Source of the DNA: an uncultured Lachnospiraceae bacterium
GTDB taxonomy: Bacteria > Bacillota > Clostridia > Lachnospirales > Lachnospiraceae
Assembly (NCBI GenBank): GCA_902779395.1
Contig: CACZBK010000006.1
Location: forward strand, 1-64,000
Reading direction: 5' to 3'
Length of the DNA: 64,000 nucleotides
The notes under the pieces were generated by a model, which was given only the letters and a program-made list of their open reading frames with translations, was not told where the DNA came from and searched no databases. Positions 48,112 to 55,755 of the stretch are shown here, one piece after another (the first letter of the stretch is position 1; each line of letters opens with the position of its first letter). The translations under genes were made by a program, and so were the position numbers.

Positions 48112-49146
48112 TCACTCCCTGAAGACGCGGTATCGCGGAAAAGAATACTTATATTCAAGCATATGTCTGCCCGCCATGGCGATCAGGTTGATCAACGGAT
48201 TGCTGTGGTGGGCATAAAAATATTTCTTTTTAAGTGTTGCTCCGAATTTCAGTTTGGTTTTCTCCGATGTCTGTCCGAAATCTATGCTCATGCATTTATG
48301 CTCTATGGCATACTCTACTATATTAAGGAGCATATAATAATACAGATCGGCATTACACACCCCGTCTTCGTATTCCATACCACAGAGCATAAAGATGAGC
48401 TCACCATGGTTTTCTTTCAGCAAAACAAATCCGATCGGTTTTCCGTCTTTTATAAAGACCAGTTTATCACCCTCGGTCCGGTCAAAGAATTCCTTTTGCA
48501 GACACTCCAGTTTATAATCGGATCTTTCATATGTCTGAAGATATAAAGAATGTATATCTATTTTATCCTCATGATCATTTACTATCTTTATGTCCTTACA
48601 CCGCTCAGCCGCAAGTCTTACCCTTCTTCTGTATGTGCTTCTCAATGAAGCTATATAAGCTTCTATAGATGTATGATCTTTCTTAAGTCTCAAAACGCAG
48701 CTTGGCAGAGTTTCCCCGGAAGCCATTCCTTCCGCATCCGGTCTGTCATCCAGATTCAGAACAAGTTTACAGCCCCTGATAGTTTTAATATAATCAAGGA
48801 CCCAGACAAGATCATTTGTAAGGATACCGCTGCAGCTTAATGAACATGGAAATCCTATAGTCGAGATATTGATGAACAGCTCTGCCTTACCGAAGGTAAA
48901 AAGATTCATCCGGTTTTCATACATTGTAAAAAAAGCATATCTTTCATCATCTTCAATATAATAGTATTTTTGTGATAACGGATTGGACCGTTTAAGAAGC
49001 TTCAGCATCTCCACACTGAAAGGAAACGGCATACTTCCTTCATTTAGGATATCTTCATAAAATCTGCTTTCTTTAAGTACCGCAAATATACTCTCCGGGT
49101 CATCAGAGATCTGCTCACGGATATTATTTCTTACACGTGCACTCAT
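48112..49146 (-). CDS. GNAT-fold acyl/aminoacyl transferase (BioF2/FemAB-like)
   Basis: 344-residue protein with two GNAT-like lobes. The C-terminal half (about 165-330) resembles the BioF2-like Acetyltransf_6 family and FemAB transferases: SLRSTYRRRVRLAAE, then GKPIGFVLL, then FGQTSEKTKLKFGATLKKK. Such enzymes pass an acyl or aminoacyl group to an amine. The final residues are hydrophobic and basic (HSNPLINLIAM...). Last gene of the six-gene radical SAM operon; its start overlaps the preceding radical SAM stop by four bases, so it is coupled to it. Confidence 0.72.
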   Translation of the reverse strand: MSARVRNNIREQISDDPESIFAVLKESRFYEDILNEGSMPFPFSVEMLKLLKRSNPLSQKYYYIEDDERYAFFTMYENRMNLFTFGKAELFINISTIGFPCSLSCSGILTNDLVWVLDYIKTIRGCKLVLNLDDRPDAEGMASGETLPSCVLRLKKDHTSIEAYIASLRSTYRRRVRLAAERCKDIKIVNDHEDKIDIHSLYLQTYERSDYKLECLQKEFFDRTEGDKLVFIKDGKPIGFVLLKENHGELIFMLCGMEYEDGVCNADLYYYMLLNIVEYAIEHKCMSIDFGQTSEKTKLKFGATLKKKYFYAHHSNPLINLIAMAGRHMLEYKYSFPRYRVFRE

Positions 49147-50456
49147 TTGTTCTTATACTTCCTGTTAAAATATCCCGTGAGACCTGCCCAGTAAATACGG
49201 GGATAATTCACATAATAGAGGAAACGGAATTCCATTTCAAAAAGCCATTTCGGGAGTTTTGAAGGACGCATCAGCACATGGGTCCCGTCCGTCCTTCTGT
49301 ACTTGTACCTGTACAGCCTGTCCTTATTCTCTTCATATACCGCTGTCCCTTTAAAAGGGATCAGTATGCTGAAGAGCACCCAGATGATCCCTTCTTTTTT
49401 TATGAAACGGTTGATCTTCATGAAATCCTCATGTCCGAAATCGTAATTGATAACAAAAAGACCAACGCACAGCATATCATACTTACGAAGTATCGCGATA
49501 GCTTTCTTGTTAAGCTCTACACTTGAATGCTTATTATACTTATCAAGTGTAGTATCTTCCACCGCTTCGAGTCCCACAAGAAAATCCCTGAACCCCGCCT
49601 TATAAATAAGAGGCATTATATCCTCGCATCTTACAATACTGTCAGCACGCGAGAAGACCATAAATGTTTTCCTGCATCCGGCCTTTAACAGTCTTTTGCA
49701 TATTTCCTTTACGCGCTCACGGTTTAACAGAAAATCATCATCTATAATGAATATCTTATCATTCTTTAACGTTATTATCTCGTCCACAACATCATCGATC
49801 GGCCGTTCCTTATATGTACATGAATTAAACTGTCTTGATATACAGAACTTGCATTGCTGCGGACATGAAAATGATGTTTTCAGAACAGAAAAACAGCCCT
49901 TTGCTATCACGCGGTATTTTGATCTGTTCTTATAAAACTGCGTACGGTCGGGCCTTATTCCGTAATTACTTATTGGCGCACCCTTTTCGTTTATGATCCA
50001 TTCACCTTTGCATCGAAAAGCAAAGCCGGTACAGTTTTTCATTGTTTCGATATCAAATTCATTCCTTACCGCAGTACGAAATGAGTCAAGACCGTTATCG
50101 TAGCTTACGAAATCAATATCATCAACGCAAAAATCCCTGTAGTTGATATTAACTTCGGGGCCTCCTACGATCACTTTTATCCCGGGACGTGCTTTTTTCA
50201 GCTTATGTATAAGCTCCAGTATATACCAGGCCATATTTGACATTACGGTAAATCCGACTATGGTCACTCCGTTTTTATCCACTTTATTCAAAAGCTGTTT
50301 AAAGCGCATAAAAGGGCTTGTAATACTTTCATCATAAATGAATGCCTTATGCTTTTCCGCTTTTACGCATGCCACAAGATATTCAAGCCCCAACGGTTCA
50401 AGACTGGCTACGCGTTTATCGTAATGTACCCGGACGAACATATATCTGTTTTTCAC
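49143..50456 (-). CDS. Radical SAM protein with B12-binding-type N-terminal domain (RS1)
   Basis: 437 residues. A Rossmann-like B12-binding fold (1-130) has the VGGPEV loop at 97-102. The radical SAM barrel has its cluster motif at Cys198, Cys202 and Cys205 (CPQQCKFC). The cobalamin DxHxxG motif is absent (IYDESIT in its place), so any cobalamin would be held without the usual lower His ligand. After the barrel comes DGTHVLMRPSKLP and an aromatic, basic C-terminus likely to touch membranes. Paralogue of RS3 and RS4, sharing the N-terminal EPLGLEYL and a DKYNK(H)S block. Substrate unknown. Confidence 0.85.
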   Translation of the reverse strand: MKNRYMFVRVHYDKRVASLEPLGLEYLVACVKAEKHKAFIYDESITSPFMRFKQLLNKVDKNGVTIVGFTVMSNMAWYILELIHKLKKARPGIKVIVGGPEVNINYRDFCVDDIDFVSYDNGLDSFRTAVRNEFDIETMKNCTGFAFRCKGEWIINEKGAPISNYGIRPDRTQFYKNRSKYRVIAKGCFSVLKTSFSCPQQCKFCISRQFNSCTYKERPIDDVVDEIITLKNDKIFIIDDDFLLNRERVKEICKRLLKAGCRKTFMVFSRADSIVRCEDIMPLIYKAGFRDFLVGLEAVEDTTLDKYNKHSSVELNKKAIAILRKYDMLCVGLFVINYDFGHEDFMKINRFIKKEGIIWVLFSILIPFKGTAVYEENKDRLYRYKYRRTDGTHVLMRPSKLPKWLFEMEFRFLYYVNYPRIYWAGLTGYFNRKYKNK

Positions 50457-50486
50457 TATAGAATCTCCTTGAAAAATAAAAGAAGC

Positions 50487-51806
50487 TTATATTATATTCG
50501 GCACTATGCCATGCTTTATATGGCCTCTGTAAAAAATATTTACTCCGAAATAAAACAGGGCAGTGAACGGCCTTTTTATAAAACTGCTGTTAAATATAGT
50601 ACGCTTTAAGATACACGGTATCGAGTACACTTTATTGTACAGCTCCCAATAAGCCTTTGTAAGTTCCTGTGGTGTCATATTCTTTGGATAATGAACTGCT
50701 TCGCAGGAATTATATGAATACATATCCGTGTTGTATATGCGGTCCTGTTTTTTCATCTCTTCATAATACTGTGTACCCGGTATAGGTGTAAGTATATAGA
50801 AACGCGGAACAACTATCTTATTATCTTCAATAAACTTTGCTGTATCCCTTATGGATTCAAGTGTATCGCCTTCAGCTCCTACAACCATCTCTGTAGATAT
50901 ATCTATGCCATGCTTTCTGATGATGGCAAGCTGCCTGCTGTATTCGTCAGGATGTGCCCAGCCCTTCTGCATTCCCAAAAGACTCTCACGGCTTATGCTC
51001 TCAAGGCCGAAACTCATCACGTAACATCCGCTCTCCGCCACTGCGGTAAGGAGCTCTTCATCCTTTGCTATGTCTACCGAACATTGCGTCATCCAATGCA
51101 TCTTAAGTTTCTTTATCTCCCTGCACATTTCAAGAGCATAATCCCTGTCAGAAAAAAGATTATCATCCAATAAAAGGAACTGCTTAAACCCAAGTTCTTT
51201 TACTCTCTTTATATCCCTCATAACATCCGGGATGCTGCGCTTTAAGTACTGTCCTTTATACAGACAGTAAATAGAACAGAAACTGCAGGTTTTTGTGCAG
51301 CCGCGACCGGCCTGTACCGGAAGAAAATTCCCTATCTTCTTATCAAGTATGAGTTCATATCTGGGAAGCGGGGTTTCAAGCTTTGTAAGCTGTTTTTTAT
51401 AGAAATCTTTAAGGGTACCGTTAAGATAATCATTTATCATCTCGCCCCAGGTTTCTTCAGCATCACCTATCATCACACTGTCGCCGTATTTTTTTGCCTC
51501 TTCCGGCATAAGTGACACCATATATCCGCCAAGGATCACGGTCTTTCCCAGCTCTTTAAACTTTTTTGCGATATCTATCGTACGCATGACAGCATGTCCC
51601 ATACTGCTTATGCCGATAAGCTCTGCATCGGTATCAAAAGGGACATCCTCTATAGTCTCATAGCAAAGCTCCACTTCAAAATCATCCGGTGTAAGAGCAG
51701 CCAGAAGAGGGAGCGCCAGCCCGACAAAATACAGGCGTTTTTTCTTTACAAGTTTTCCGTACTGATCATAGGGAGTCGGCTGTATAAGAAGTATTTTTTT
51801 CTTCAT
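50487..51806 (-). CDS. Radical SAM protein with B12-binding-type N-terminal domain (RS2)
   Basis: 439 residues. B12-type fold 1-130 (LGGYMVSL at 92-99) and radical SAM barrel with Cys170, Cys174, Cys177 (CTKTCSFC). No DxHxxG motif. It is the odd one of the four: it lacks the LEPLGLEYL and DGTH blocks of its neighbours and looks more like HpnJ/BchE-type proteins, with GLESISRESLLGMQKGW and a C-terminal NSSFIKRPFTALFYFG segment that could lie on a membrane. It starts three bases after the RS3 stop. Confidence 0.85.
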   Translation of the reverse strand: MKKKILLIQPTPYDQYGKLVKKKRLYFVGLALPLLAALTPDDFEVELCYETIEDVPFDTDAELIGISSMGHAVMRTIDIAKKFKELGKTVILGGYMVSLMPEEAKKYGDSVMIGDAEETWGEMINDYLNGTLKDFYKKQLTKLETPLPRYELILDKKIGNFLPVQAGRGCTKTCSFCSIYCLYKGQYLKRSIPDVMRDIKRVKELGFKQFLLLDDNLFSDRDYALEMCREIKKLKMHWMTQCSVDIAKDEELLTAVAESGCYVMSFGLESISRESLLGMQKGWAHPDEYSRQLAIIRKHGIDISTEMVVGAEGDTLESIRDTAKFIEDNKIVVPRFYILTPIPGTQYYEEMKKQDRIYNTDMYSYNSCEAVHYPKNMTPQELTKAYWELYNKVYSIPCILKRTIFNSSFIKRPFTALFYFGVNIFYRGHIKHGIVPNII

Positions 51807-51809
51807 ACG

Positions 51810-53141
51810 CTAAAACCAGCCCTTCTTTTTAGTATCATATGCTGTACCAAGAAGTGCTCTTACCATTATCTTAGGATAAGTTACCACATGCAGCCAGTAA
51901 TACCTGAGCATAAATTCGATCGATGACATGTTTGTAGGTTTTAAGGTAAGATGTGTTCCGTCAAGTCTCCAGGATTTAAAATGTACCAGCTGATCCCTGT
52001 ATTCATCATAAGCATCGGTTCCCTTATAGGGAGTAAATATCCCGAAAACCACCCACAAAAGGTTCGTATCCTTTACAAACTTCAGAAGCTTTCTGAAATC
52101 CTCTCTTGTGGCCGTATAATTCACAACGAAAAGCCCGTTGCACACAAGGCCGGCATCCTGCAGATTTTTAATAGCCATGATATTTTCATCACGTGAGGTC
52201 TGTTTATTATACTCATCCAGAGTCTCATCGGATATGGCTTCAAGCCCTACCATTATATCCCTGAAGCCGGCTTTATAGGCAAGCGGCAGTATATCCGGAT
52301 TGGCCGCAAGAAAATCAGCCCTGGCATATGCCATATACTGCTTCTTAATCCCCCGCTTTATCACCTCATTGCAGAATGCCCTTACTCTTTCCTTATCAAA
52401 GAAGAACGTATCATCTACAAACCATACTTTGTCATGTTTAAGCTCTTCAAGTTCATCCACCACTTCAGAAAGATTCCGCTCCGTGTATTCACCGCTGTTC
52501 ATCTTGGTACAATAACAGAACGTGCAGTTATACGGGCATGAAAACGATGCCTTACTCAGCGCAAACTTTCCTTTCATGAAGATATAGTTGTTCTTAAGCC
52601 CTCTGTAAAATGCTGTCCTGTCAGGTTTCGTGATAAACCCGCATACCGGGGCGCCCTTTTCTTTTTCGATCCACTTCCCGTTATCCTTATAACATATACC
52701 TGAAAGATCTTTCAGTTTATCGGGAGTACAGCCGTATCTCCACATCTTTTTTAATGTGGCAAGCCCATTATCGAAATAAACGAGATCAATGTCATCTGTA
52801 CAGAACTCCCTGTAGTTAAGCTCCGCCTCCGGACCGCCTACCATGATAGTAATGTCCGGATATCTCTCTTTAAGCTGTCTGGCTCGTTTTATGATTATAT
52901 CCACAGTATTTGCATTTGCATTAAACCCGACAAAATCATATCTTCCGTTTTCTATACGTTTGCATATTCTCTGAAAACGAAAAGCCCACGGATATTGAAA
53001 TTCATCATGAATACTGCATTTAATTTTCAGATCTTTTGCCAGACCGGCAAGATATTCAAGACCCAGCGGCTCAAGATTAGCCACCAATGACGTATACTTC
53101 GGTCTTATCAGTAATACTCTTGGTTTTTTTACTGTCATCAT
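51810..53141 (-). CDS. Radical SAM protein with B12-binding-type N-terminal domain (RS3)
   Basis: 443 residues. B12-type fold with VGGPEAEL at 101-108, cluster motif Cys202, Cys206, Cys209 (CPYNCTFC), then GLEAISDETLDEYNKQTS and DGTHLTLKPTNMS. No DxHxxG motif (SIHDEFQ at that place). The C-terminus is aromatic and basic. Closest to RS1 by the shared blocks. Its GGAGG ribosome site is encoded by the last codons of RS4 and the start overlaps the RS4 stop by four bases. Confidence 0.85.
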   Translation of the reverse strand: MMTVKKPRVLLIRPKYTSLVANLEPLGLEYLAGLAKDLKIKCSIHDEFQYPWAFRFQRICKRIENGRYDFVGFNANANTVDIIIKRARQLKERYPDITIMVGGPEAELNYREFCTDDIDLVYFDNGLATLKKMWRYGCTPDKLKDLSGICYKDNGKWIEKEKGAPVCGFITKPDRTAFYRGLKNNYIFMKGKFALSKASFSCPYNCTFCYCTKMNSGEYTERNLSEVVDELEELKHDKVWFVDDTFFFDKERVRAFCNEVIKRGIKKQYMAYARADFLAANPDILPLAYKAGFRDIMVGLEAISDETLDEYNKQTSRDENIMAIKNLQDAGLVCNGLFVVNYTATREDFRKLLKFVKDTNLLWVVFGIFTPYKGTDAYDEYRDQLVHFKSWRLDGTHLTLKPTNMSSIEFMLRYYWLHVVTYPKIMVRALLGTAYDTKKKGWF

Positions 53142-54499
53142 CTGCCTCCGATCAGTTTCTTAAAATACTGCAGATTTACTTTAAATGCGCCCACACTTAA
53201 TTTAAGAGTATCATGAAGCCCGTATTTCTTTATCATATACCAGGCACTCACAGGATTGACAGTCACCTTATAATATAAAAGTATCGTGTACCAGTAATAC
53301 ATCCTTACCGATATATTGTCCGGCTTAACTACCAGATGAGCCAGATCCCACTTTTCATATTCATCTTCCCTCACGATAAAACGGGGTCTGTATTTTTCAT
53401 ATATATCCGTCCCTCTGAGAGGTGTCAAAGGCTGCAGGTTTACAAATACCAGCCCGAGCTTTTTTATCCAGCGATAGAGCGCATCGAAATCCTTCCTGGT
53501 CCAATCCAGACCGAGTATAAATGTCCCGTAACATTCTACGTCATATTTCTTCAGTATTCCGGCTGCTTTTTCGTTTATCGCTACATTGGTACGCTTATTA
53601 TAATCATCAAGCTGCCGGCTGTCACAGGATTCGAGACCTACTATAACCGCTCTTAAGCCAACCTCTTTAAAACGTTTTATCACATCTTCGTTTGCAGCTA
53701 TAAAGTCTGCTCTTCCGTATATAAGATACTTTTTCCGGATATGTTCCTTCTCCAGCATATCGCAGAACTTAAGGATACGTTCACGTCCCACCAGAAAATC
53801 GTCATCCACTATATAGATCTCGCTCTCCCTTATCTGCTTAAGCTCGCAGATTATATCTTCAAGAGATCTGGCAAAATACTGATCATCCGTTATCTGCCTG
53901 CAGAAACAGAACTTACAGTTATAGGGGCAGCCAAAGGACGTTTTGATCAGACTGCAGTTCCGGTGAAACATGTAATAATACTTTGACCTGTATCTCTTTA
54001 CTTTGCCCCTGTCAGGATAAAGATAGGAAAATGTAGTATCTTTTTTCGGAGGTTTTCCTCCGTTGTGGTACACACACTCAGGCTCTTTGTTATCCTTTCC
54101 TTCAAGTTTGTTCAATATATCTATGAAAGTACGTATCCCGTTGGCACGGATTATATAATCGATATATTCTGATTCAAAATCACCCGGATTAACTTCTGCA
54201 TGAACTCCGCCGACTATGGTGACGATCTTTTTATCAGCAGCTTTCGTCTGTCTTGCATAATCCTTTATAATATTAACATGAGAGATGTATCCTGTTATAC
54301 CTACCACATCCGGTTTAAGCCTCTCTACAAAATAACGCACCGGTCTCTTTTCGAGTATCATATCGATAATGATGCACTTATGACCCAATGCTTCAATATT
54401 GGATGCGATATATTCAAGCTCCAGAGGCTCGCAGATCATAACGTTCTGTAAGCCTATCGTTTCTTTATGCGGTTTTGGACGAAACAGCAAGACTTTCAT
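53138..54499 (-). CDS. Radical SAM protein with B12-binding-type N-terminal domain (RS4)
   Basis: 453 residues. B12-type fold with VGGVHAEV at 96-103, cluster motif Cys191, Cys195, Cys198 (CPYNCKFC) followed by an extra FCRQ cysteine. Later come GLESCDSRQLDDYNKRTN and DLAHLVVKPDNIS, the counterparts of the RS1/RS3 blocks. No DxHxxG motif. The C-terminal 60 residues are unusually rich in Tyr and Lys with hydrophobic stretches, suggesting contact with membranes or a lipid. It follows the GNAT gene with a 24-base gap. Confidence 0.85.
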   Translation of the reverse strand: MKVLLFRPKPHKETIGLQNVMICEPLELEYIASNIEALGHKCIIIDMILEKRPVRYFVERLKPDVVGITGYISHVNIIKDYARQTKAADKKIVTIVGGVHAEVNPGDFESEYIDYIIRANGIRTFIDILNKLEGKDNKEPECVYHNGGKPPKKDTTFSYLYPDRGKVKRYRSKYYYMFHRNCSLIKTSFGCPYNCKFCFCRQITDDQYFARSLEDIICELKQIRESEIYIVDDDFLVGRERILKFCDMLEKEHIRKKYLIYGRADFIAANEDVIKRFKEVGLRAVIVGLESCDSRQLDDYNKRTNVAINEKAAGILKKYDVECYGTFILGLDWTRKDFDALYRWIKKLGLVFVNLQPLTPLRGTDIYEKYRPRFIVREDEYEKWDLAHLVVKPDNISVRMYYWYTILLYYKVTVNPVSAWYMIKKYGLHDTLKLSVGAFKVNLQYFKKLIGGR

Positions 54500-54523
54500 T
54501 TAAAATATATTCTCCGCTTATCA

Positions 54524-55609
54524 TCAAAGCTTTTTTTCAAACACAACGTACTTCTTATACAGACCGTCGCAGCTTGCGCGGCAGAAGCTGTTGGAATCGT
54601 CATTTTCCTCAAGAACCCATGATGTCTCTATCCTGGTATATCCCTGATCTTTGATCAGATTAAATGCTTTATATATAAGTGCCGCAGGCAGCCCGCGCCC
54701 GCGGTATTCCTTAAGCACTCCGTATTCCATCACTTTCGCGGTCCTTATCTTATTACCTGCAAGCAGATTCTTAAAGAAATGCTTTGTACCGAAACTTTCC
54801 CCTCTGGCCGCCAGCTCATTAAAATCAGGATACCACATGATAAAGCCGACAGGTTCTTCATCCTTAAATGCAAATATCAGGGAATCCTCCTTCATGAAAA
54901 GGAACAGCTCCTTCAGCATCTCCTTATCATCCTCATAATCCCTCTCATAATAATAGCGGTGTTCACAAAAACACAGATTGTTAAGATCGGTATATATCTT
55001 CGAATATATGTCAAACTTGTCTTTATCAAAGAAACGGAAGGTGTAATTCTTATCAATGCGCTCTATGGCACGTCTGAACTTTTCGAGCCTGTCATCATAG
55101 CTGTTTACCACATATGAATTAAGCCCGACTTCTTCAAATCCTGCCTTTCTGAAATATTCGGTATAATACATGGGATTACCGGGTGAAGAAAAAGAGTTTC
55201 GCTCCTCAAAATGTGAATCCAGAAAACCAAGCCCATAGTTTACATGGCCGCACAGACCGGCGACCAGGCATTTACAGCCAAACCTTCTTCCGTATTCCGC
55301 GGTTATATCAGTAAGCATCTTTACAGCTTCCTGCTGATGCGGTCTTGCTTCAAAAAAGCACAGCTGTATACAGTCGGGAAGTCCGGGGGCATATACCACC
55401 AATCCCTGACACAGGATCCTGTTTTTATCATCGCTTACATATATGGGATAATACTTCAGATTCTCGGTAAAATGGAGCTTTCCGGAAAAGATCTCACAGA
55501 GCATGAAATAATTACCGTCAATATATCGCATGCTGCCTCTGTATATCTCCCTGCGAAATTCAAGAAATCTCTTTTGCTCCGTTCTGTTGTCTGCGATCGT
55601 CAGCTTCAT
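54524..55609 (-). CDS. GNAT-family N-acyltransferase (YghO-like)
   Basis: 361-residue protein. The C-terminal GNAT domain (about 200-345) has the acyl-CoA loop EYRGRGLPAALIYKAF and the strand ETSWVLEENDDSN typical of YghO-type proteins. The N-terminal part is a second, divergent lobe (FLEFRREIYRG). Such proteins transfer acyl groups to amines; acceptor unknown. It heads the radical SAM operon. There is no ribosome site; the predicted transcript starts on the A of the ATG. Confidence 0.75.
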   Translation of the reverse strand: MKLTIADNRTEQKRFLEFRREIYRGSMRYIDGNYFMLCEIFSGKLHFTENLKYYPIYVSDDKNRILCQGLVVYAPGLPDCIQLCFFEARPHQQEAVKMLTDITAEYGRRFGCKCLVAGLCGHVNYGLGFLDSHFEERNSFSSPGNPMYYTEYFRKAGFEEVGLNSYVVNSYDDRLEKFRRAIERIDKNYTFRFFDKDKFDIYSKIYTDLNNLCFCEHRYYYERDYEDDKEMLKELFLFMKEDSLIFAFKDEEPVGFIMWYPDFNELAARGESFGTKHFFKNLLAGNKIRTAKVMEYGVLKEYRGRGLPAALIYKAFNLIKDQGYTRIETSWVLEENDDSNSFCRASCDGLYKKYVVFEKKL

Positions 55610-55684: not shown

Positions 55685-55755
55685 AAACTCCCGTGCAAGA
55701 TGCAGGGAGTTTATAAGGGGGGAGAAGGGAATCAGCACTTCTCAGTTTGCTGATT
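55685..55755. terminator. Two hairpins after pta
   Basis: The gap 55610-55843 holds no gene. The first hairpin after pta (55730-55737 with 55748-55755) has only a weak T tract leftward. The second (55685-55692 with 55705-55712) is followed leftward by TTCTTT after a TTT stem end, and looks like the real terminator of pta. It sits about 40 bases before the next promoter. Confidence 0.6.

Follow-up and report, generated by a model that had tools for sequence, protein, structure and literature searches.

Several known systems come close to the locus reported here. Radical S-adenosylmethionine (SAM) enzymes of the Mss/Tes kind make membrane-spanning lipids, according to PMC8941075 and PMC13274423, and natural-product enzymes of the Gcn5-related N-acetyltransferase (GNAT) fold are discussed, in PMC12945691, with a lysine equivalent to the catalytic FemX Lys305. 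Multi-enzyme biosynthetic clusters of cobalamin-type radical SAM proteins are known as a kind. FeeM-type N-acyl amino acid biosynthesis shares the logic of ligase, acyl carrier protein (ACP) and GNAT-fold transferase with the clusters described below, the fee clusters themselves holding a ligase and an ACP; we know of no counterpart in FeeM-type systems to four to six radical SAM genes. Here we describe six open reading frames (ORFs) on the minus strand, at 48112-55609 of a 64,000-nucleotide stretch (the window) of contig CACZBK010000006.1 from an uncultured Lachnospiraceae bacterium, that encode two GNAT-fold proteins (GA and GB) and four B12-domain radical SAM proteins (R1 to R4). Our preferred reading, to which we give a probability of about 45%, is that the product of this operon and its relatives is a small metabolite or lipid that contains an amino acid and is N-acylated, is assembled with no multimodular synthetase and is modified serially by radical C-H chemistry. 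The combination is apparently undescribed: no description of such a cluster layout was found in the titles and abstract openings of open-licence literature, and neither these nor family models nor PDB profiles gave a close match to a characterised pathway, in agreement with the first-pass annotation of the stretch, which had recognised none.

The genes are transcribed in the order GA, R4, R3, R2, R1, GB (Table 1), with intergenic gaps of 24, -4, 3, 30 and -4 bases from GA to GB. ORF coordinates and Pfam matches bore out the first-pass annotation in gene number, strand, order, spacing and family types. Each of R1 to R4 matched the B12-binding model PF02310 (33.3-59.9 bits, cut-off 32.1) and the Radical_SAM model PF04055 (52.6-67.9 bits, cut-off 29.5) and contains one CxxxCxxC motif, which places all four among the cobalamin-type radical SAM proteins; these features suggest, though they do not demand, that the four use cobalamin. 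A motif scan also found at least one GG and no DxHxxG in each protein, as had been noted earlier, and among 111 homologous radical SAM proteins longer than 400 amino acids from related clusters, window included, CxxxCxxC was present in all and DxHxxG in none. The sequence blocks said to be shared by R1, R3 and R4 were visible in the translations (EPLELEYI / EPLGLEYL, DYNKRT / EYNKQT / KYNKHS, DLAH / DGTH).

No radical SAM protein of the window reached any specific family cut-off among the curated NCBIfam models HpnR, BchE, HpnJ and PhpK. The best scores against their cut-offs were 171.4 against 650 (HpnR), 123.5 against 481 (BchE), 90 against 578 (HpnJ) and 93.6 against 600 (PhpK); the remoteness from HpnR, HpnJ and BchE is in keeping with the first-pass annotation. 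R4, R3, R1 and one scanned PX (a further HpnR/BchE-like protein of related clusters) align over most of their length with HpnR, the hopanoid C-3 methylase, or BchE, R4 scoring 171 bits with HpnR and R1 124 bits with BchE; however, these scores amount to roughly a quarter, or less, of the curated cut-offs, the window proteins form clades of their own, and hopanoid or bacteriochlorophyll genes were not noticed alongside the radical SAM genes of the clusters. R2 matches the radical SAM part of PhpK (94 bits), HpnJ (90 bits), ApyD (80 bits) and AprD4 (57 bits), but lies far under the cut-offs (500-750) and forms its own clade, found in 34 of the 39 GA-positive genomes surveyed below. Profile searches of the PDB gave AprD4 as the best solved relative of both R4 and R2 (6fd2 for R2), with OxsB and TokK also among the solved relatives of R4. 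The tetraether synthase Tes, likewise a radical SAM enzyme, was not among the matches of R4 and R2 at E <= 0.001, the presence of the Tes entry in that copy of the database being unchecked. Three of the six operon proteins (R4, R2 and R1) matched one candidate defence model, PDC-M51A, at 29-39 bits, which we took as generic radical SAM likeness, and a defence function was rejected.

A tree of the 111 radical SAM proteins was built by a quick method, with support from the Shimodaira-Hasegawa-like approximate likelihood ratio test (SH-aLRT) only. The 26 R2 rows were separated from the other 85 by a branch of 4.37 changes per column, in line with the earlier description of R2 as distinct; within the R2 alignment, 13 of the other 14 rows are 79-96% identical to the window R2 and one is 58% identical. 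The remaining 85 rows comprised R1 (10), R3 (12), R4 (27), PX (24, not one supported clade) and Q, another radical SAM paralogue (12). R1 and R3 were confined to rows of the window's family, whereas R4, R2, PX and Q crossed families. Since R4 is phylum-wide and R1 and R3 are restricted to the window's family, these proteins are old paralogues rather than products of recent tandem duplication. The first-pass annotation had seen a local expansion in R1, R3 and R4; this holds in part for R1 and R3 but not for R4, and the joining of R1 with R3 in the tree may be a long-branch artefact. Paralogues of the R type, at 31-39% identity, also occur in genomes negative for GA (G011, G012; G numbers denote genomes and L numbers loci). 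The R4 gene of G142 (L064 11572-12859) reads as two overlapping pieces, possibly through a frameshift or an assembly error.

The two transferases were compared with Pfam families and, through AlphaFold2 (AF2) models, with solved structures. GA matched PF00583 (40.3 bits, cut-off 20.7), and its model (mean predicted local distance difference test score, pLDDT, 83.0) gave as best Foldseek matches the tandem GNATs 5kf1, 7q3a, 4zm6 and 2wpw, with MshD lower; nearest in fold were a clostridial glucosamine N-acetyltransferase, which was the first match, and MAB_4324. By its model, GA appears to resemble tandem GNATs of the coenzyme A (CoA) type. GB barely exceeded the cut-off of PF13480 (22.7 against 22 bits), and among 16 GB rows Acetyltransf_6 was matched by all, FemAB_like (PF04339) by five and the Pfam FemAB family, at E <= 1, by none. 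The best of its AF2 models had a pLDDT of 84.0 and the remaining four 63.6-71.3. In the predicted structure GB has two GNAT domains in a FemX-like arrangement, and its top Foldseek matches were Sbb17/Sba18, FemX and MprF domains. Sbb17 and Sba18, which are aminoacyl-tRNA-dependent peptide synthases according to their PDB titles, matched the predicted fold with template modelling scores of up to 0.61 (query) and 0.72 (target); the fold matches are, on the other hand, at 11-15% identity only, and use of aminoacyl-tRNA by GB is a prediction. Lys298 of GB, a candidate counterpart of FemX Lys305 in a K-x-K/R-F/I-G motif, was invariant in 16 of 16 rows. The predicted fold suggests that GB resembles the aminoacyl-tRNA-dependent FemX/Sbb17 enzymes. 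Both proteins are thus GNAT-fold, as had been proposed, but they do not seem equivalent, GA being of the CoA-type tandem kind and GB of the FemX kind by their models. Neither matched FeeM (PF21926).

To survey synteny, we looked for GA in 60 relatives and in 392 genomes of the order and 398 of the phylum; 14 named loci came from a GA scan, and R2 led to one record of a plasmid collection (Acetoanaerobium). Counting each genome once, GA scored above 200 bits in 39, which formed the survey set; gene counts over this set are conditional on GA, by which all loci were chosen except in the R4 search and the Acetoanaerobium match. Further cluster genes were present in 37 of the 39: R4 in 37, GB in 35, R2 in 34, PX in 31, a small class I methyltransferase (MT) in 20, a ligase in 20 (at about 104 bits only in G522 and G436), R3 in 18, an ACP in 16, Q in 14 and R1 in 13. 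Gene order was retained across families of the phylum, and neighbouring cluster genes mostly overlap or sit within about 100 bases of each other; longest open frames were taken as starts, so that some overlaps are too long. The clusters of G001, G010 and G016 are each spread over more than one contig, and several contigs break off close to the cluster. Seventeen weak GA matches were excluded from the 39. Nine of them, in G371 and G293 of the order and G471, G562, G687, G574, G664, G711 and G451 of the phylum, reached no more than about 113 bits and had no other cluster gene within stretches of up to 20 kb; the loci of the other eight, all in the phylum, were left unread (G591, G815, G445, G771, G754, G539, G528 and G544). 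A high-scoring GA without any other cluster gene was found in L019 and G800, both counted in the 39. These lone GA genes (L019 10001-11110, where an ion-channel gene, PF00520, follows, and L096 1847-2914) are perhaps remnants of clusters.

For a test independent of GA sampling, relatives of R4 (at least 47% identity) were sought in the 60 relatives and occurred in 17, exactly the 17 that carry GA; the cluster is therefore not a set of chance neighbours. That six unrelated genes happen to share a strand, as the first-pass annotation allowed should synteny be missing in relatives, draws on the patchy distribution alone, and is refuted by the joint occurrence of cluster genes in 37 of the 39 GA-positive genomes, which span several families, and by R4 and GA falling in the same 17 of 60. 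The operon is conserved, as proposed. Its distribution is patchy: of 35 genomes from the window's genus 16 carry GA, and of 392 from the order 9 do so above 200 bits, the window's own genome being included in both counts. R4 of G028, from the same genus as the window, is 47% identical to that of the window, and its R4 and R2 group with those of G418 from another genus; conversely, R4 of G125 and G046, from other families, falls inside the group of the window's genus. Because such groupings cross lineages, horizontal movement is likely to have spread the cluster in part.

The gene set extends beyond the six of the window, a change from the first-pass annotation. Apart from the window genome, 15 genomes of the genus are GA-positive, and ten of them open the cluster with ligase, ACP and GA. 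G031 carries ligase and ACP between R2 and R1, G028 has a ligase with no ACP seen, and G001, G020 and G030 have neither, like the window genome, so that the window cluster is a reduced version. PX sits in the operon in G020; in the window genome (G000) it is on contig 1 instead (L025 10420-11784), where it lies behind a 2-hydroxyacid dehydrogenase gene (PF02826). The ligase belongs to PF00501 and is similar to adenylating enzymes of the fatty-acid, succinylbenzoate, coumarate and luciferase types. Its subfamily (E < 1e-150, a threshold set post hoc after the list had been viewed) occurred in 13 of the 17 GA-positive and none of the 43 GA-negative genomes among the 60 relatives, the best GA-negative E value being 2.2e-137. 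The cluster ACPs have an invariant serine in a GLxSF motif (11 rows), and the one that was scanned matched ACP models under the cut-off (42.8 against 66). MT shows weak likeness to BioC (72 bits against 185). L094 (7597-9255) and L095 (11516-13171) each have, some 0.6 kb upstream of GA, a gene for an AMP-binding ligase that scored about 104 bits with the cluster ligase profile and was possibly recruited independently.

Additional genes of related clusters were grouped by clustering 217 non-core ORFs located in or within 4 kb of 37 clusters. In G700, G522 and G436, which belong to two families other than the window's, a FeeM-like gene (PF21926, 43.1-48.0 bits, cut-off 27) and a phosphatidylserine-decarboxylase-like gene (PF02666, 155-158 bits, cut-off 22) are inserted in the cluster (Table 1); across the 60 relatives, FeeM gave one weak match. 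A trio comprising an ABC-type ATPase, a CobW/HypB-type NTPase and a PF04060 iron-sulphur protein lies in or beside the cluster in L024 (17534-19625) and in G125 (L058 7305-9432). PF04060 also occurs in corrinoid iron-sulphur proteins, and the trio possibly serves corrinoid or metal handling. Apart from these, no other family was found inside clusters of two genera among the groups listed. In three genomes of one genus a ferredoxin-like gene stands directly upstream of the cluster (L062 16726-17583, L063 12963-13820, L064 13521-14378), with Fer4 domains in all three and the EFR1 type in L062; its product is a possible electron donor.

An acyl and amine theme had already been suggested for the operon, and it is strengthened by the linked ligase and ACP and by the FeeM-like and phosphatidylserine-decarboxylase-like genes of relatives. 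We infer the following substrate, reaction types, order of steps and product. A carboxylic acid, probably fatty or hydrophobic, would be adenylated and loaded on a dedicated ACP by the linked ligase and ACP; in the window strain the acyl group would have to come from housekeeping acyl-ACP or acyl-CoA. GA, as a tandem GNAT, would then move the acyl group onto an amine, and GB, as a FemX-like double GNAT, would attach either an amino acid taken from aminoacyl-tRNA or another acyl group. R4, R3, R1, PX and R2 may act serially on unactivated carbons, most likely by C-methylation, with ring closure or carbon-carbon coupling possible. In other lineages the small MT could add a further methyl group. 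A broader proposal, which we hold more tentatively than the reading itself, is that the clusters represent a new class of natural product made by anaerobes. Two stand-alone GNAT-fold enzymes would draw on acyl-ACP and aminoacyl-tRNA to assemble an acyl-aminoacyl amide, without a non-ribosomal peptide synthetase, polyketide synthase or ribosomal precursor; separate cobalamin radical SAM enzymes would then rebuild it at several unactivated carbons, the whole having spread patchily by horizontal transfer in Bacillota. A set of up to five distinct cobalamin-type radical SAM genes next to a FemX-like and a CoA-type GNAT would be a compact source of difficult C-H chemistry and, should the reading be right, radical carbon chemistry would be tied, in bacteria of gut and rumen, to tRNA-dependent amide formation. 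A member is carried by the cultured Acetoanaerobium noterae DSL2, for which there is a completed record, so that product and enzymes are directly testable. That record (L068, NZ_CP154629.1) is 2.63 Mb long, labelled a plasmid and annotated with four features, and may be a chromosome.

Several results weigh against the preferred reading. G031, G034 and G019 are among the relatives that carry the acyl-loading module of ligase and ACP, but it was not found in the window operon or genome: the ligase profile had no match at E <= 1e-60 in the window genome, a single ligase protein yielded no more than weak partial matches, and the sole ACP profile match is an ordinary sequence among housekeeping neighbours at 90.4 kb on the window's contig. 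With no dedicated ligase or ACP found in the genome, the acyl loading step is indirect for the window strain. Elsewhere, G028 and G418 have a ligase with no ACP seen, and neither gene was found in the stretches of Acetoanaerobium, G085, G206, G158, G071, G142, G505, G472, G725, G700 and G789. The FeeM-like and decarboxylase genes occur in just 3 of 39 genomes. As to the transferases, the closest folds of GA include the glucosamine N-acetyltransferase, four of the five GB models have a mean pLDDT of about 71 or lower, and a sequence search of the PDB with GB gave nothing up to E 10. AprD4, to which R4 and R2 come closest among solved structures, is a sugar-modifying enzyme that, to our knowledge, needs no cobalamin.

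Two other kinds of product were weighed against an N-acylated, amino-acid-containing one. The clusters could encode a membrane-lipid pathway in which the radical SAM proteins act on acyl chains, methylating or joining them, to give membrane-spanning or branched lipids comparable to the diabolic acids of Butyrivibrio, and GB aminoacylates a head group as MprF does. MprF domains are among the best GB folds, three clusters contain the phosphatidylserine-decarboxylase-like gene, and the named relatives are Lachnospiraceae, several of them from rumen samples and one labelled Butyrivibrio, a genus reported in PMC13274423 to have diabolic-acid lipids with vinyl ethers. In the same paper mss and ger are stated to co-occur in 561 Lachnospiraceae species, whereas the present cluster is patchy within both genus and order. 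Tetraether synthase was also missing from the PDB profile matches of R4 and R2, with the limits given above, and no membrane protein was recurrent in the clusters among the groups listed, transmembrane segments not having been predicted. We consider a membrane-lipid pathway unlikely. Somewhat less likely again is an aminosugar or aminocyclitol antibiotic, in which GA would N-acetylate an amino sugar, GB would add an amino acid from tRNA as Sbb17 does on streptothrisamine, and the radical SAM proteins would work on the sugar, by rearrangement or methylation, as in the apramycin or oxetanocin pathways. Such a product would accord with the first Foldseek matches, the clostridial glucosamine N-acetyltransferase for GA and Sbb17 with streptothrisamine for GB, and with AprD4, OxsB and TokK as solved relatives of R4 and AprD4 of R2. 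However, the fold matches stand at 11-15% identity, no sugar-, nucleotide- or glycosyl-transferring family was recurrent inside the clusters among the groups listed, and the linked ligase, ACP, FeeM-like and decarboxylase-like genes indicate acyl chemistry.

A cluster for a ribosomally synthesized and post-translationally modified peptide (RiPP), with B12 radical SAM enzymes C-methylating a small precursor peptide, was also considered, as the ApyD and rSAM_ocin_1 models were among the weak matches. No minus-strand ORF of at least 30 amino acids lies wholly inside the gap before GA. We further scanned 337 same-strand small ORFs (20-75 amino acids) from the gaps and 700-base flanks of 37 clusters; among the groups listed the only one shared by two genera overlaps the decarboxylase gene. 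A precursor was thus rejected both before GA and, among those groups, as a gene shared across the 37 clusters. Because the scan gave no shared precursor, we lowered a probability that was already small, and regard a RiPP as very improbable.

Table 1. Features of the operon and of the insert in related clusters (window positions unless a locus is named)
Feature	Position	Strand	Evidence or location
GA, tandem-GNAT acyltransferase (putative), first operon gene	54524..55609	-	PF00583, AF2 model, Foldseek
R4, B12-domain radical SAM, HpnR/BchE-like, phylum-wide member	53138..54499	-	PF02310 and PF04055; HpnR 171.4 bits
R3, B12-domain radical SAM, lineage-specific paralogue	51810..53141	-	PF02310 and PF04055
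R2, B12-domain radical SAM, separate strongly conserved family	50487..51806	-	PF02310 and PF04055; separate tree branch
R1, B12-domain radical SAM, lineage-specific paralogue, GTG start	49143..50456	-	PF02310 and PF04055
GB, double-GNAT, FemX/Sbb17-like predicted fold, last gene	48112..49146	-	PF13480, AF2, Foldseek
Terminator-like hairpin and T-run, between upstream phosphate acetyl/butyryl-transferase gene and GA	55685..55712	-	Folding
FeeM-like and phosphatidylserine-decarboxylase-like insert	L093 3407-4692; L094 16817-18048; L095 1490-2721		Between R2 and PX

The terminator-like hairpin upstream of GA points to separate transcription of the operon. A 61-nucleotide stretch containing it folds with a minimum free energy of -16 kcal/mol (z -4.45), and 0 of 200 shuffles were as stable; its stem is bulged, and a simple hairpin scan did not list it. 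The gene upstream of the hairpin matches PF01515. The G+C content of the operon is 40.8%, compared with 44.0% for the window, and is near the minimum of 40.7% among 7.5-kb stretches. On the plus strand a convergent MATE-family gene (PF01554, 46693-48111) ends on the base adjoining the last base of GB; it was rejected as a cluster member, the family not being recurrent beside other clusters among the groups listed. Two cobalamin riboswitches, which speak for the preferred reading, were found in the window genome.

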